Part shown: positions 14,068 through 31,271 of the stretch, piece by piece
Layout: every line of letters begins with the position of its first letter
Position numbering within the stretch: position 1 is the first letter of the stretch
DNA from: Thermoanaerobacterales bacterium UBA4877
GTDB lineage: Bacteria > Bacillota > Thermoanaerobacteria > Thermoanaerobacterales > UBA4877
DNA length: 61,687 nt
Assembly: GCA_002399345.1 (NCBI GenBank)
Contig: DHDL01000009.1
Span: forward strand, 1 to 61,687
Direction: 5' to 3'
Made by a program: the position numbers and the translations under genes
The notes under the pieces: model-generated
The model's database searches: none
Seen by the model: only the letters and a program-made list of their open reading frames with translations
Told to the model about the DNA's origin: nothing

Positions 14068-14081
14068 GAGTGTGTTGTTAT

Positions 14082-14480
14082 ATGAAGATTAGAAACTGTA
14101 AAAGATGCGGCAAAGTTTTCGTATATAATGGTGTTGATCTATGCCCTGACTGTTTGAAAGAGGATGAAGACGATTTTAAAAAAATCGAGGAAGTACTCCC
14201 CCGGCATCCCAGGGCGACTGTGTTTGAAATATCCGAGCTCACCGGTGTTGATTCCAAAAAGATATGGGATTTTTTAAAGCAGGGCAAGCTGGAGTTAGCC
14301 GATAATAATTCCGGTATCCAGTTAAAATGTGAAAGATGTGGCAGGCCCATAAGCTCGGGACGATTTTGCAGCAGGTGTCTTAAGGTCATAAATGACCGGC
14401 TTAAGATAGAACCTGAAAATGAACAAAGAGTAAAAAAGAATGAAAAGTTCCATATACAGGATAGGATAAAGAGACATTAA
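14082..14480 (+). CDS. yvyF: Flagellar operon protein YvyF (TIGR03826-like)
   Basis: A 132-residue zinc-ribbon protein with CKRCGKVF...CPDC at the start and CERCGRP...CSRC near residue 85, with a short winged-helix-like middle (PRATVFEISELTGVDSKKIWDFLKQG). It matches the YvyF flagellar-operon family found between comF and flgM. A GTG at 14070 is in frame but sits on the ribosome binding site, so the ATG at 14082 is preferred. Its 3' half (14284-14484) is repeated at 26435-26635, and the island at 14485 now separates it from flgM. The coding sequence itself is intact. Confidence 0.88.
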   Translation: MKIRNCKRCGKVFVYNGVDLCPDCLKEDEDDFKKIEEVLPRHPRATVFEISELTGVDSKKIWDFLKQGKLELADNNSGIQLKCERCGRPISSGRFCSRCLKVINDRLKIEPENEQRVKKNEKFHIQDRIKRH

Positions 14481-14484
14481 ATAA
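14284..14484 (+). repeat. Left 201-bp direct repeat (3' end of yvyF)
   Basis: Identical to 26435-26635 except for one base (G at 14465, A at 26616). The copies start at a shared GCAA and end just after the yvyF stop (TTAAATAA). They are 12,151 bp apart and bound the catabolic island. Confidence 0.97.
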
Positions 14485-26382: not shown

Positions 26383-26631
26383 GTGGAAAATGTGTACGGA
26401 ATATTTTCTGCGCAGAGTGTATTCGGCCACTCTTGCAAGCTGGAGTTAGCCGATAATAATTCCGGTATCCAGTTAAAATGTGAAAGATGTGGCAGGCCCA
26501 TAAGCTCGGGACGATTTTGCAGCAGGTGTCTTAAGGTCATAAATGACCGGCTTAAGATAGAACCTGAAAATGAACAAAGAGTAAAAAAGAATGAAAAGTT
26601 CCATATACAGGATAGAATAAAGAGACATTAA
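26383..26631 (+). pseudogene. Mosaic comFC-yvyF remnant
   Basis: A frame that joins pieces of the two genes at 13366 and 14082. First come 26 bp with 22 matches to comFC 13894-13919 (its product reads ENVYGIFSA against ENMCGAFSV). Then comes an exact 24-bp match to 14033-14056, the comFC 3' end. A junction at the microhomology GCAA follows, and then the yvyF 3' end from 14284 onward, identical but for one base. The rest of comFC and the first half of yvyF are missing, so the frame is unlikely to make a useful protein, although one zinc-ribbon (CERCGRP...CSRC) remains. Confidence 0.85.
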
Positions 26632-26635
26632 ATAA
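26435..26635 (+). repeat. Right 201-bp direct repeat (3' end of yvyF)
   Basis: Second copy of 14284-14484 with one base changed (26616). The sequence just beyond it carries the flgM promoter, so this side keeps the original yvyF-flgM junction. Confidence 0.97.
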
Positions 26636-27453: not shown

Positions 27454-28893
27454 ATGATGTCATCAACATTTTTTGGATTTGAGATAACCAAGACCGGTCT
27501 TTTTGCCGCTCAAAGAGCCCTGGATATAGTTTCGCACAATGTGGCCAATGCCAATACGCCGGGATATACTAGGCAAAGGGTTGATCTTGCTGCTCTGCCG
27601 CCTCTGCCGACAAGTGGCATGTATGGACAGGGAAGGGTTGGGTCTGGAGTTGACATAACTGGCGTAAATCAGATAAGGAATATCTTTTTGGATGCACAGT
27701 TTCGAGGCGAAAATGGTGTTTATGGTGAGTGGGATGCCAAGACACAGGTTTTAGACAGTATTGAGGCGATATTCAATGAACCCTCCGATTCAGGTATTGC
27801 AACCGTACTAAAACAGTTTTTTGATTCTTGGGAGGAATTGTCTAAATCTCCGGAAAGCCTGTCTACCCGAGCTACGGTAAGAGAGAGAGGAGTAGCTGTG
27901 GCACAGACTATAAGGACTACATATGACAAGCTTGTAGCTAAAAGAGAGGAAATAAATCAGGATGTAGTCACAAGGATAGATGAGGTAAACTCCTATGCTA
28001 AAAGGATTGCGGACTTAAATGATCAGATATATAAATTTGAATTAAATGGTGATAAGGCCAATGATTTAAGGGATGAAAGAAACATGCTTTTGGACAAGCT
28101 TTCCGAATTGGCATACACAACAAGCTATGAGGACAGCAGGGGGAGACTCCGGGTTGACATAGCAGGCCAGGCCTTGGTCGACCATACCAATTTCTATGAG
28201 ATAGAGGCCAAAGCTAACCCCGAGGACAGCATGGTTTCTCCCGTATGGAAGATAACCGGTAAGGCGGTGGATTTAAAATCGGGCAGGATCAAGGGCATGC
28301 TGGATGCCAGGGACGGCAGCGGCGACCCGGAATATAAGGGAGTCAAATTTTATATAGATGAATGGGATAATTTTGCGAAAACATTCGTAGATAAGATAAA
28401 TGAGCAGCATAGGGCCGGTTTTGGACTGGACGGTACTAAAGGTGTGGACTTTTTTAAAAGCACGTCCTCAGGTGTCTATTTAAATGCCGGTGATATGGAT
28501 ATTTCGGACGATATAAAAGACGATCTTAACAAGATAGCGGCCTCTTCCACTAAAGACGGGCTGCCGGGTGATAATGCAAACATTCTTGCCATTATAGGGC
28601 TCAGGGGGGATACCTCTGTATTTGGCGAGGGTACGTTTGAGGACTTTACCAGGTCGCTAGTTTCCAACCTTGGTGTTGATGCACAGCAGGCTCAAAGGAT
28701 GACAACCAATCAGGGTGTACTCAAGATGTATATAGATAATAATAGACAATCCATATCAGGTGTATCAATGGACGAAGAGATGACGGATATGATAAAATAT
28801 CAGCATTCTTATAATGCTGCAGCAAGAATGATAACGGCCATAGATGAGATGATAGACACCATAGTAAATAAAATGGGCGTAGTGGGGAGGTAG
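27454..28893 (+). CDS. flgK: Flagellar hook-associated protein 1 (FlgK)
   Basis: Forms the first ring between hook and filament. The 479 residues start MMSSTFFGFEITKTGLFAAQRALDIVSHNVANANTPGYTRQ, the hallmark N-terminus of rod/hook proteins, and end with the matching helical tail (SGVSMDEEMTDMIKYQHSYNAAARMITAIDEMIDTIVNKM). The frame is open to 27424, but the ribosome site ATGAGGTG selects the ATG at 27454. Export by the flagellar type III system is expected, with FlgN as its chaperone. Confidence 0.96.
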   Translation: MMSSTFFGFEITKTGLFAAQRALDIVSHNVANANTPGYTRQRVDLAALPPLPTSGMYGQGRVGSGVDITGVNQIRNIFLDAQFRGENGVYGEWDAKTQVLDSIEAIFNEPSDSGIATVLKQFFDSWEELSKSPESLSTRATVRERGVAVAQTIRTTYDKLVAKREEINQDVVTRIDEVNSYAKRIADLNDQIYKFELNGDKANDLRDERNMLLDKLSELAYTTSYEDSRGRLRVDIAGQALVDHTNFYEIEAKANPEDSMVSPVWKITGKAVDLKSGRIKGMLDARDGSGDPEYKGVKFYIDEWDNFAKTFVDKINEQHRAGFGLDGTKGVDFFKSTSSGVYLNAGDMDISDDIKDDLNKIAASSTKDGLPGDNANILAIIGLRGDTSVFGEGTFEDFTRSLVSNLGVDAQQAQRMTTNQGVLKMYIDNNRQSISGVSMDEEMTDMIKYQHSYNAAARMITAIDEMIDTIVNKMGVVGR

Positions 28894-28898
28894 AAAAA

Positions 28899-29816
28899 AT
28901 GCGTGTCACTAATAACATGATGATAAATAATTTCCTGCTCAATTTCAGCAAAAATACTCAGCGGTTGGATAACCTGCAGCAGATACTCGCATCCGGCAAG
29001 CTCATTCGTTATCCTTCCGATGATCCAGTCGGTACCGTGACTGTCATGAAGCTTAATAAAGACGTGTCATCCATTGCCCAGTATAAGAAGAATGTGGACG
29101 ACGCCGATTCCTGGCTCAATCTAACCGATACGGCTATAAAAAATGTGAACGACGTGCTTGCCAGGGTAAGAGAACTTCTTGTAGAGGGATCAAACAGCCC
29201 GACGGAGACCAAGGATATAGTCAGCGAGATAAATCAGCTAAAAAAGCAGCTTGTAAACGTAGGCAACACAAGGTATTCGGACAGATACATATTTGGAGGA
29301 ACAAAAACAACGACCGAGGCATATACGCTGGATGAGGGAAACGGCCCGAACGGCGGCGTGACCTATAACGGATCAAACTCAGAGTCAGATGGCCCCTGGG
29401 AGATCAAATTTAACGTGGGGGCGGATGATCAGGTAACCATAAATGTTACGGGTGATAAGATATTCGGGGATACAAAAAGCGGAGACAATATCTTTAAGCT
29501 GTTTGACGATATTGCGGCAAGCCTGGAAGATGGCAGCGTAGAGAAAGTCTCCTCATATATAGAAGATTTGGATAAGCATATAGACAATATTTTAGCGGTA
29601 AGGGCGGATACTGGTGCACGGTCTAACCGGGTGGAGCTTACTAAAAACAGGCTTGCGGATGACAAGATCAACTTCACCAATCTGCTTGCCAATGCCGAGG
29701 ATGCCGATATTGCGAAAACAATCATGGACATTTCGAATGCGGTGAATGTATACACCTCCTCACTTAATGTGGGAGCTAGGATCATTCAGCCATCACTTGT
29801 AGATTTTCTGCTATGA
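28899..29816 (+). CDS. flgL: Flagellar hook-associated protein 3 (FlgL)
   Basis: The second junction protein, 305 residues, flagellin-like at both ends: MRVTNNMMINNFLLNFSKNTQRLDNLQQILASGKLI at the start and a closing helix with ADIAKTIMDISNAVNVYTSSLNVGARII. It is 5 bp after flgK and followed by a terminator, so fliW-csrA probably have their own promoter or depend on read-through. Confidence 0.95.
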   Translation: MRVTNNMMINNFLLNFSKNTQRLDNLQQILASGKLIRYPSDDPVGTVTVMKLNKDVSSIAQYKKNVDDADSWLNLTDTAIKNVNDVLARVRELLVEGSNSPTETKDIVSEINQLKKQLVNVGNTRYSDRYIFGGTKTTTEAYTLDEGNGPNGGVTYNGSNSESDGPWEIKFNVGADDQVTINVTGDKIFGDTKSGDNIFKLFDDIAASLEDGSVEKVSSYIEDLDKHIDNILAVRADTGARSNRVELTKNRLADDKINFTNLLANAEDADIAKTIMDISNAVNVYTSSLNVGARIIQPSLVDFLL

Positions 29817-29820
29817 TTTT

Positions 29821-29840
29821 TAAAGGGCATTTAATATGCC
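29821..29840 (+). terminator. Terminator after flgL
   Basis: AAAGGGCAT/ATGCCTTTT hairpin with a TTAAT loop and eight T. Confidence 0.85.
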
Positions 29841-29911
29841 TTTTTTTTATTCACTTTTTTAAATTGGAATGTTAAAATTATATAAAGGATTTTACAATGG
29901 GGGGGAAGCTT

Positions 29912-31039
29912 ATGCTTTTAGAGACAAGAAATTTTGGCTCTATTGAATACGACGATAATGAAGTAATATATTTTCAAAAAGATATACTCGGTTTTGAGGG
30001 ATTGAAGAGATACATAATTGTCGGTAAGGAAGACAATGAACCCTTTATGTGGCTGCAGTCCGTTGATGAGCCCGGCCTGGCCTTTGTCATAATAGAAGGA
30101 GCCGATGTTATCCCGTATTACCGGCCGGAGATTCCTGCAGACGAACTCAAATGGCTGGATGCAAAGGAATCAACGTCGTTACTTATCTATAACATCGTCG
30201 TTATACCGGATAATATTGAGGAAATCTCGTGCAATCTTAAAGCGCCTGTAGTGATAAACAGCGATAATTGTAAGGCTGCCCAGGTTGTATTGGATGATAC
30301 TGACGACTATGAAATCAAGCATCACCTCAAAAAAGATCTGGAGAATTACAGCATTGAAAGGGAACGCTATAAGGAATGCGAAGGTTTTGTACGCCGTATA
30401 TATCAATTCACCGGCGGATTGAAACCGATGGAAAGCACTATGTTAAAGCAGAAATATAAGGGACCTTATGCTGTTTCTCTGCTGATAGTTGATATGATAA
30501 ATGGATTTTGCAGGTCGGGGGCATTATCCAGCCCTAGGATTCGTAATTTGGAAATGCCCATATTTGATCTTACCAAAAATATATTGTCTGAAGGAGCCAA
30601 AAATATAGCTTTTTTAAATGATTGCCATACCAAAAACTCAGCAGAGTTTGATGACTTTCCACCTCATGCCATAAAGGGAACTAAGGAGTGTGAAATAGTA
30701 GATAGCCTTAAGGTATTTACCCGCGGAGCAGCGATTTTTACAAAAAATTCACTCAATGCCTTTACTAATCCAGACTTTAATACATACGTCAAACAGCTTA
30801 TAAAAAATGGAACCCAGTGCTTTATAATTACAGGAAACTGTACGGACCTGTGTATTTATCAGACCGCCGTCACATTAAAGATGTTTTTGAACAGCAGCAA
30901 TGCCAAGATTGATATCATTATACCCTATAACTGCGTGGATACGTTTGACTCGTATGAGCATGCTGCCGATCTTATAAATCCCCTTTTTCTATATCACCTT
31001 AAAGCCAACGGAATAAAGATAGTTAAGGAGATAATATAA
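29912..31039 (+). CDS. fliW: FliW fused to an isochorismatase/nicotinamidase-type hydrolase
   Basis: One frame of 375 residues with two domains. Residues 1-139 are a complete FliW, the flagellar assembly factor that binds flagellin and antagonises CsrA (start TRNFGSIEYDDNEVIYF, FliW end VVLDDTDDYEIKHHL). After a linker of about 45 residues, 187-375 match cysteine hydrolases. The triad is Asp194 (VDMINGF), Lys278 (FTKNSLNAF) and Cys314 (CTDLC). Metal-ligand-like Asp237, His239 and His252 (NDCHTKN, PPHAIKGT) resemble nicotinamidases. Normal FliW ends near residue 150. The ATG at 29897 lies before GGGGGG; 29912 is the better start. csrA follows after 1 bp. The hydrolase substrate is unknown. Confidence 0.93.
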   Translation: MLLETRNFGSIEYDDNEVIYFQKDILGFEGLKRYIIVGKEDNEPFMWLQSVDEPGLAFVIIEGADVIPYYRPEIPADELKWLDAKESTSLLIYNIVVIPDNIEEISCNLKAPVVINSDNCKAAQVVLDDTDDYEIKHHLKKDLENYSIERERYKECEGFVRRIYQFTGGLKPMESTMLKQKYKGPYAVSLLIVDMINGFCRSGALSSPRIRNLEMPIFDLTKNILSEGAKNIAFLNDCHTKNSAEFDDFPPHAIKGTKECEIVDSLKVFTRGAAIFTKNSLNAFTNPDFNTYVKQLIKNGTQCFIITGNCTDLCIYQTAVTLKMFLNSSNAKIDIIIPYNCVDTFDSYEHAADLINPLFLYHLKANGIKIVKEII

Positions 31040-31040
31040 T

Positions 31041-31271
31041 ATGCTCGTACTTACAAGGAAAAAGGGCCAAAGCATCAAGATCGGGGATAATATTACAATA
31101 AGTGTGATGGATGTGGATGATGATAAGGTGAGTATAGGGATTTCGGCTCCAAAAGATGTAGAAATAGTCCGCACAGAGCTTTTAGATGTAAAAAATGAGA
31201 ATATAACAGCTGCTAATAATCCTAAAAACGGGTTCGATAATTTAAAAAGGTTTTTAGATAATCAACTTTGA
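31041..31271 (+). CDS. csrA: Translational regulator CsrA
   Basis: A 76-residue RNA-binding protein that blocks translation of flagellin mRNA in Firmicutes and is neutralised by FliW. It starts MLVLTRKKGQSIKIGDNITISV and includes the conserved GISAPKDVEIVRTEL. The last 20 residues (ENITAANNPKNGF...) are more variable. It lies 1 bp after the FliW fusion gene, which supports that the fused protein is the working FliW partner. Confidence 0.97.
   Translation: MLVLTRKKGQSIKIGDNITISVMDVDDDKVSIGISAPKDVEIVRTELLDVKNENITAANNPKNGFDNLKRFLDNQL

Follow-up and report, generated by a model that had tools for sequence, protein, structure and literature searches.

The 61,687-nt stretch of DNA analysed here (the window; contig DHDL01000009.1 of assembly GCA_002399345.1, Thermoanaerobacterales bacterium UBA4877) contains a gene in which FliW is joined to an isochorismatase-type cysteine hydrolase. 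It runs from the ATG at 29912 to the TAA ending at 31039 as one uninterrupted frame of 375 amino acids. The FliW domain PF02623 covers residues 19–139 (E 3.5e-36, 124.1 bits versus a gathering score of 25), and the hydrolase domain PF00857 covers residues 190–323 (E 1.1e-16, above the Pfam gathering score). The csrA gene begins 1 bp after the stop codon. The same spacing is found in the related genomes G001 and G002, which also carry the fusion, so that the fused protein lies within a fliW–csrA unit in all three. An initial annotation, made from the letters alone, had described the in-frame fusion with a full cysteine-hydrolase domain, the 1-bp distance to csrA and the place of the protein in this unit; all of these hold.

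The fusion is genuine and is no sequencing error. About 5.8 billion proteins were searched, with lengths restricted to 0.55–1.75 times that of the query; of 2063 candidates, 12 reached E ≤ 1e-3, namely five full-length fusions and seven unfused hydrolases. The five fused protein clusters (P0002–P0006) are 66–99% identical to the window protein, and all lie above the Pfam cut-offs for both PF02623 and PF00857; their existence removes the sequencing error that the initial annotation had kept in view. When residues 1–150 were searched against fusion-length proteins only, the same five clusters alone were returned among 158 candidates, this search being word-based and blind to relatives lacking a common 5-residue word. 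Two residues distinguish P0002 from the window protein, and the two proteins may come from the same species. Locus L001, a contig of G001 (a metagenome-assembled genome of a Thermoanaerobacteraceae bacterium), encodes P0005, and the fusion protein of G002 is almost the same as P0006; thus, G001 and G002 add nothing beyond the five clusters. The gene order around the fusion in L001 is that of the window, with flgM, flgN, flgK and flgL before it and csrA, a thioesterase and a flavodiiron protein after it. In G002, the surrounding frames match the window in size and order, with csrA next. The names of the neighbours in L001 and G002 come from resemblance and not from a domain scan.

Across the fusions of the window, G001 and G002, the proteins are 62–77% identical in the FliW half, 44–64% in residues 141–185 and 73–84% in the hydrolase half, conservation being lowest at the joint. 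Nonsynonymous divergence (dN) in the two halves is 0.11–0.24, and synonymous divergence (dS) is 1.7, 4.9 or saturated. The dN/dS ratio is 0.11 for the FliW half (window–G001) and 0.04 for the hydrolase half (window–G002); dS is saturated in the other four half-comparisons, where the ratio of the proportions of nonsynonymous and synonymous differences (pN/pS) is 0.12–0.25. The low dN and the high or saturated dS indicate that both halves are under purifying selection and that the fusion is old. The exclusive use of an internal start in the linker, which the initial annotation had also considered, was rejected: the Met codons 173 and 177 of the window protein are absent from P0003–P0006, and no start codon within residues 135–191 recurs at one place in the three genes, Shine–Dalgarno matches there reaching at most 4 of 6.

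The survey of relatives comprised 61 genomes, namely G001 and 60 others. PF02623 was found in 50 of them and PF00857 in 39 (38 above the cut-off), and the fusion is present in two (G001 and G002), each with one PF00857 and one FliW, both within the fusion. FliW and the hydrolase are separate genes in 20 genomes, on different contigs in 10 and on the same contig at least 200 kb apart in 10; the hydrolase of one of these (G023) is a fragment at a contig end. Standalone forms do exist in relatives, as the initial annotation had allowed, but not as neighbours split by a stop codon. In the class of G001 (37 genomes, the same ones as in the survey as far as matches go), the matches at E ≤ 1e-45 comprise two fusions and 19 hydrolases encoded separately. 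Across the phylum, FliW is present in 174 of 249 sampled genomes, and G001 provides the single case of a C-terminal hydrolase among the matches listed. Long FliW frames of G175, G222, G246 and G254 were rejected as other fusions, since, by eye, their extra length precedes the FliW start and their tails are short.

The hydrolase tree (75 rows) was built by a quick method, and several of its branches were flagged as long. It groups the six fused proteins in a single clade, with a support of 98 in the Shimodaira–Hasegawa-like approximate likelihood ratio test (SH-aLRT), and the unfused P0007 is their sister (99). The six also form one clade on the FliW tree (40 rows; support 99/96). The simplest reading of these trees would be a single fusion event followed by descent. 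P0007, a protein of 233 amino acids with 57% identity, is the closest unfused relative. Similarity of the unfused Thermoanaerobacterium hydrolases begins at fusion residue 159, inside the joint. The nearest unfused relatives of the C-terminal half, the hydrolases of loci L002–L046 (Thermoanaerobacterium, Chloroflexota and others), share its active-site residues; unlike the window fusion, they stand alone.

In G004 and G006, flagellin is present, FliW, CsrA and PF00857 were not found, and flgL is followed by frames resembling, by eye, flaG, fliD and fliS (L087, L088, L091, L092). The co-loss in these two genomes was rejected as evidence, since G025–G037 have FliW without any PF00857; FliW and PF00857 are therefore not tied in general.

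The nicotinamidase of Streptococcus pneumoniae is reported to have the zinc ligands Asp53, His55, Glu64 and His71 and the catalytic triad Asp9–Lys103–Cys136 (PMC6271260). The window protein contains the Asp–Lys–Cys triad of nicotinamidases (D194, K278, C314) and a metal site of the same type (D237, H239, E245, H252). Each metal ligand is present in 76 of 76 aligned hydrolase rows, and all seven active-site residues are kept in 75 of the 76, some of these rows being identical or nearly so. The six fused proteins keep all seven. The triad and the ligands Asp237, His239 and His252 lie where the initial annotation had placed them, and Glu245, which it had missed, completes the metal site; with both sites complete, its description of the hydrolase as nicotinamidase-type stands. 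In the standalone hydrolase of genome G013 (L061), Asn replaces the catalytic Asp.

With a profile of the hydrolase family, 13 PDB sequences match at E ≤ 1e-6, and 10 of these are nicotinamidases by name or title. The VIA-align match list is dominated by residues 171–375, and a family's absence there carries no meaning; among the listed structural matches of the hydrolase half, the highest identity (28%) is to PncA of Bacillus subtilis. PncA of B. subtilis (5zn8) and of S. pneumoniae (3o90–3o93) share the Asp–Lys–Cys triad and the Asp–His–Glu–His metal site, and probably the fold, with the window hydrolase; however, they are standalone enzymes, with a sequence identity of 25–28% to it.

Gene neighbourhoods were compared for 46 hydrolase loci, 45 of them unfused, in flanks of up to 6 kb a side, with neighbours identified by phmmer at E 1e-6. 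A gene related to nicotinamide adenine dinucleotide (NAD) lies near the hydrolase in 20 of the 45 unfused loci (NrtR-like in 18, NadE-like in 6, NAPRT-like in 3); no NrtR-, NadE- or NAPRT-like gene was found in these flanks at the remaining 25. Curated models agree in the four loci tested: NAPRT is the next gene in L038, NrtR is present in L004, L007 and L028, and NadE in L028, the NrtR matches being under the NCBIfam cut-off and above that of Pfam NrtR_WHD. The 20 loci are mostly from Chloroflexota and are thus not independent; L038 and L042 are from Bacillota. The Thermoanaerobacterium loci closest to the fusion (L002, L003 and the truncated L044) have no NAD-gene neighbour in their flanks. 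The NrtR-adjacent unfused nicotinamidase-like family (L004–L043, e.g., L007, L008 and L028) is found chiefly in Chloroflexota, and six of its loci are also near NadE-like genes. The presence of NAPRT was rejected as a test of function: 48 of the 61 surveyed genomes match the model, three of them above the cut-off, with and without the hydrolase alike. In the Caloramator loci L018 (5890–6564) and L023 (5875–6549), the longest unfused hydrolase frame overlaps the end of the preceding frame by 4 bases; in L018, that frame is a YjjW-type activase located behind a YjjI glycyl radical enzyme.

FliW is reported to keep CsrA off the flagellin mRNA and to be captured in turn by flagellin (PMC6070490), and in B. 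subtilis flagellin, FliW and the CsrA dimer are described as being near 1:1:1, with csrA translation coupled to fliW (PMC6529632). The FliW fold of the window protein matches 5dmd and 5dmb. Among 34 unfused FliW proteins, 27 columns are conserved in 80% or more of the sequences; 24 of these columns are kept in at least five of the six fused proteins, the exceptions being residues 69, 115 (I/V) and 133 (Y/F). The eight narrower NCBIfam FliW groups all score below their cut-offs (NF009798, 143.7 versus 208; NF009793, 120.4 versus 130), and none was assigned.

CsrA was found in both fused genomes, G001 and G002. The window CsrA is slightly under the NCBIfam cut-offs (72 versus 73; 65.5 versus 70.1) and above that of Pfam. 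The CsrA residues reported to contact FliW are I52/N56 in Geobacillus thermodenitrificans and V51/N55 in Campylobacter jejuni (PMC7829508). In the alignment with the G. thermodenitrificans protein (5dmb), Val50 and Asn54 of the window CsrA stand opposite this Ile and Asn, with one residue less before them, and are invariant in four of four aligned sequences (window, L001, G003, G014).

The flagellin of the window's own genome lies outside the window, and the leader data come from G001 and G002. Their flagellin leaders contain GGCA-UGGA-UGCC about 33 nt before the start, with a second GGA in the Shine–Dalgarno sequence, and this CsrA-type GGA hairpin forms in whole-leader folds of both. The same GGA arrangement precedes flagellin in G003 and G014, which have a separate FliW; the flagellin leaders of G004 and G006 are without it. 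The pattern GGCANGGATGCC-N10..28-AAGGAGG is found in 23 of the 61 genomes (all 22 of G001–G024 except G004 and G006, plus G041), while its reversed control is found in none of the 61; a position before flagellin was confirmed for G001, G002, G003 and G014. G019 and G022 each have a second such site. Judging from these sequences, the parts of the FliW–CsrA switch are present in the fused genomes. The flagellin gene of G001 (contig 25) and of G002 (contig 8) is on another contig than fliW–csrA; in G003, G008 and G014, it lies within about 250 bases after csrA. The FliW proteins of B. subtilis and G. thermodenitrificans (5dmb, 5dmd) share with the window system the domain, the fold, the adjacency of csrA, the CsrA contact residues and, for G001 and G002, the GGA hairpin; however, they are single-domain proteins of about 150 residues, whereas the window FliW carries a hydrolase.

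The genes upstream of the fusion encode FlgN, FlgK and flagellin-type (FlgL) domains, and csrA is followed by a thioesterase-type gene. A terminator-like hairpin and a promoter-like site separate flgL from the fusion (Table 1), and in G001 and G002 a similar hairpin and TTCACA-17-TAAAAT can be noted by eye at the corresponding position. This arrangement suggests that the fusion gene has a transcription unit of its own.

Table 1. Positions in the window of the fusion gene, its parts and the adjoining features.
Feature	Position	Strand	Remarks
flgK	27454..28893	+	PF22638, PF06429, PF00460; start codon chosen, longest frame from 27424
flgL	28899..29816	+	Flagellin_N and Flagellin_C; named from its place after flgK
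Terminator-like hairpin after flgL	29822..29844	+	
Promoter-like site before the fusion gene	29850..29878	+	TTCACT-17-TAAAAT
fliW–hydrolase fusion gene	29912..31039	+	375 amino acids; PF02623, then PF00857
FliW domain	29912..30331	+	residues 1–140
Joint	30329..30415	+	helix predicted at residues 140–168, AlphaFold2 model
Nicotinamidase-like hydrolase domain	30473..31036	+	residues about 188–375
Asp194	30491..30493	+	catalytic by analogy
Asp237 to His239	30620..30628	+	two metal ligands by analogy
Glu245	30644..30646	+	metal ligand by analogy
His252	30665..30667	+	metal ligand by analogy
Lys278	30743..30745	+	catalytic by analogy
Cys314	30851..30853	+	nucleophile by analogy
csrA	31041..31271	+	76 amino acids, 1 bp after the fusion stop; PF02599, 1.6e-22

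Both halves are likely functional, and we consider it probable that the protein has two functions, comprising a FliW module and a metal-dependent nicotinamidase module whose genes were once separate and were joined in a single event. We infer the following mode of action. As FliW does elsewhere, the N-terminal module would bind CsrA and leave the flagellin mRNA open to translation, up to the point where flagellin captures the FliW module itself. The C-terminal module would be a metal-dependent nicotinamidase of the S. pneumoniae and B. subtilis PncA kind, converting nicotinamide to nicotinate for NAD salvage. The fusion gene has a promoter-like site of its own, and its 1-bp distance to csrA would keep the enzyme, FliW and CsrA at a constant ratio, provided that translation of csrA is coupled as it is in B. 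subtilis. The preferred reason for the joining is that the number of nicotinamidase molecules, and perhaps their activity, would be tied to the flagellin homeostat.

To our knowledge, FliW has been known to antagonise CsrA as a protein on its own, with no enzyme as its partner. No description of a FliW–isochorismatase/nicotinamidase fusion was found among open-licence PMC papers (titles and abstract starts), in line with the initial annotation, which knew of no such FliW; an automatic database label does exist (JGI name "FliW protein./Isochorismatase family."). Apparently, this architecture of one small group of anaerobes is undescribed; it is built from two known families. In the manner of a Rosetta-stone protein, the conserved joining of FliW to a salvage-type enzyme hints at a possible wiring between NAD turnover and the flagellin/CsrA homeostat, which can be tested in this single protein.

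Some points qualify parts of this proposal. The count of promoter-like sites in the window is at chance level, which places the weight on the recurrence of the site in G001 and G002. The exact pattern GGCANGGATGCC-N10..28-AAGGAGG is unmatched in 27 of the 50 FliW-bearing genomes. On this evidence, two functional modules that do no more than share a polypeptide are at least as likely as mutual regulation. The former, a weaker and compatible form of the proposal in which both halves work and the shared chain adds nothing past co-expression, is a serious possibility, though somewhat short of probable. The unfused proteins in relatives and the weak conservation of the joint agree with it; however, all six proteins are still fused although synonymous sites are largely saturated in the three genes compared, and the unfused sister P0007 may be either the ancestral state or a split.

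A stronger form, also compatible with the two-function protein, is an allosteric link in which occupancy by nicotinamide, nicotinate or metal alters the binding of FliW to CsrA or flagellin, or these partners alter the enzyme rate. We regard it as tentative and rather unlikely; if true, flagellin synthesis would sense NAD turnover. It is consistent with a one-clade fusion under purifying selection that accounts for every PF00857 and every FliW found in G001 and G002, and with a helix predicted across the joint. However, conservation is weakest in the joint, which is also modelled with lower confidence (predicted local distance difference test, pLDDT, 64 at residues 141–150 and 78 at 151–160; predicted template modelling score, pTM, 0.64), and both proteins are unlinked in 20 of the 61 genomes. 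A metabolic gate could work through the same joint, with the nicotinamidase module sensing nicotinamide or NAD turnover and setting the amount of free FliW for CsrA; in the reverse direction, flagellin capture of FliW could switch NAD salvage on or off. Taken together, the two directions are doubtful. If the gate were true, NAD recycling would be linked, through a single polypeptide, to the translation of flagellin and to the rest of the CsrA regulon.

A small amide other than nicotinamide is an unlikely substrate of the hydrolase. PF00857 spans many substrates, and the window domain passes none of the NCBIfam nicotinamidase cut-offs; with NF008623 (nicotinamidase/pyrazinamidase of the Escherichia coli type), it is not reported at E 0.1, and it was not assigned to this type. 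Other amidases score as high as nicotinamidases in the fold comparison, and the best profile match in PDB is 3eef. These points are opposed by the nearly invariant nicotinamidase-type triad and metal site, by the NAD gene neighbours of the unfused loci and by the identity to B. subtilis PncA, the highest among the listed structural matches. That the hydrolase is a dead scaffold altering only the size or oligomeric state of FliW is very improbable, given the seven active-site residues kept in all six fused proteins, a hydrolase half conserved at least as well as the FliW half, and the absence of any other PF00857 found in G001 or G002.

An assembly error at the fusion gene can practically be dismissed: the fusion recurs in other records with diverged sequence and open frames, and nothing pointing to an error was found at the gene, although elsewhere the window has a direct repeat of 201 nt, without mismatches, that could mark a problem at that site. 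The repeat (14284–14484 and 26435–26635) corresponds to the 3' end of a yvyF-like gene, the complete copy of which lies at 14070–14480. It flanks about 12 kb of genes that resemble, by eye, phosphotransferase system (PTS) and sugar-acid genes. This could be an artefact of assembly or the insertion of a segment together with a duplicated gene end; in L001, a flgM-like gene comes directly after the yvyF-like gene.
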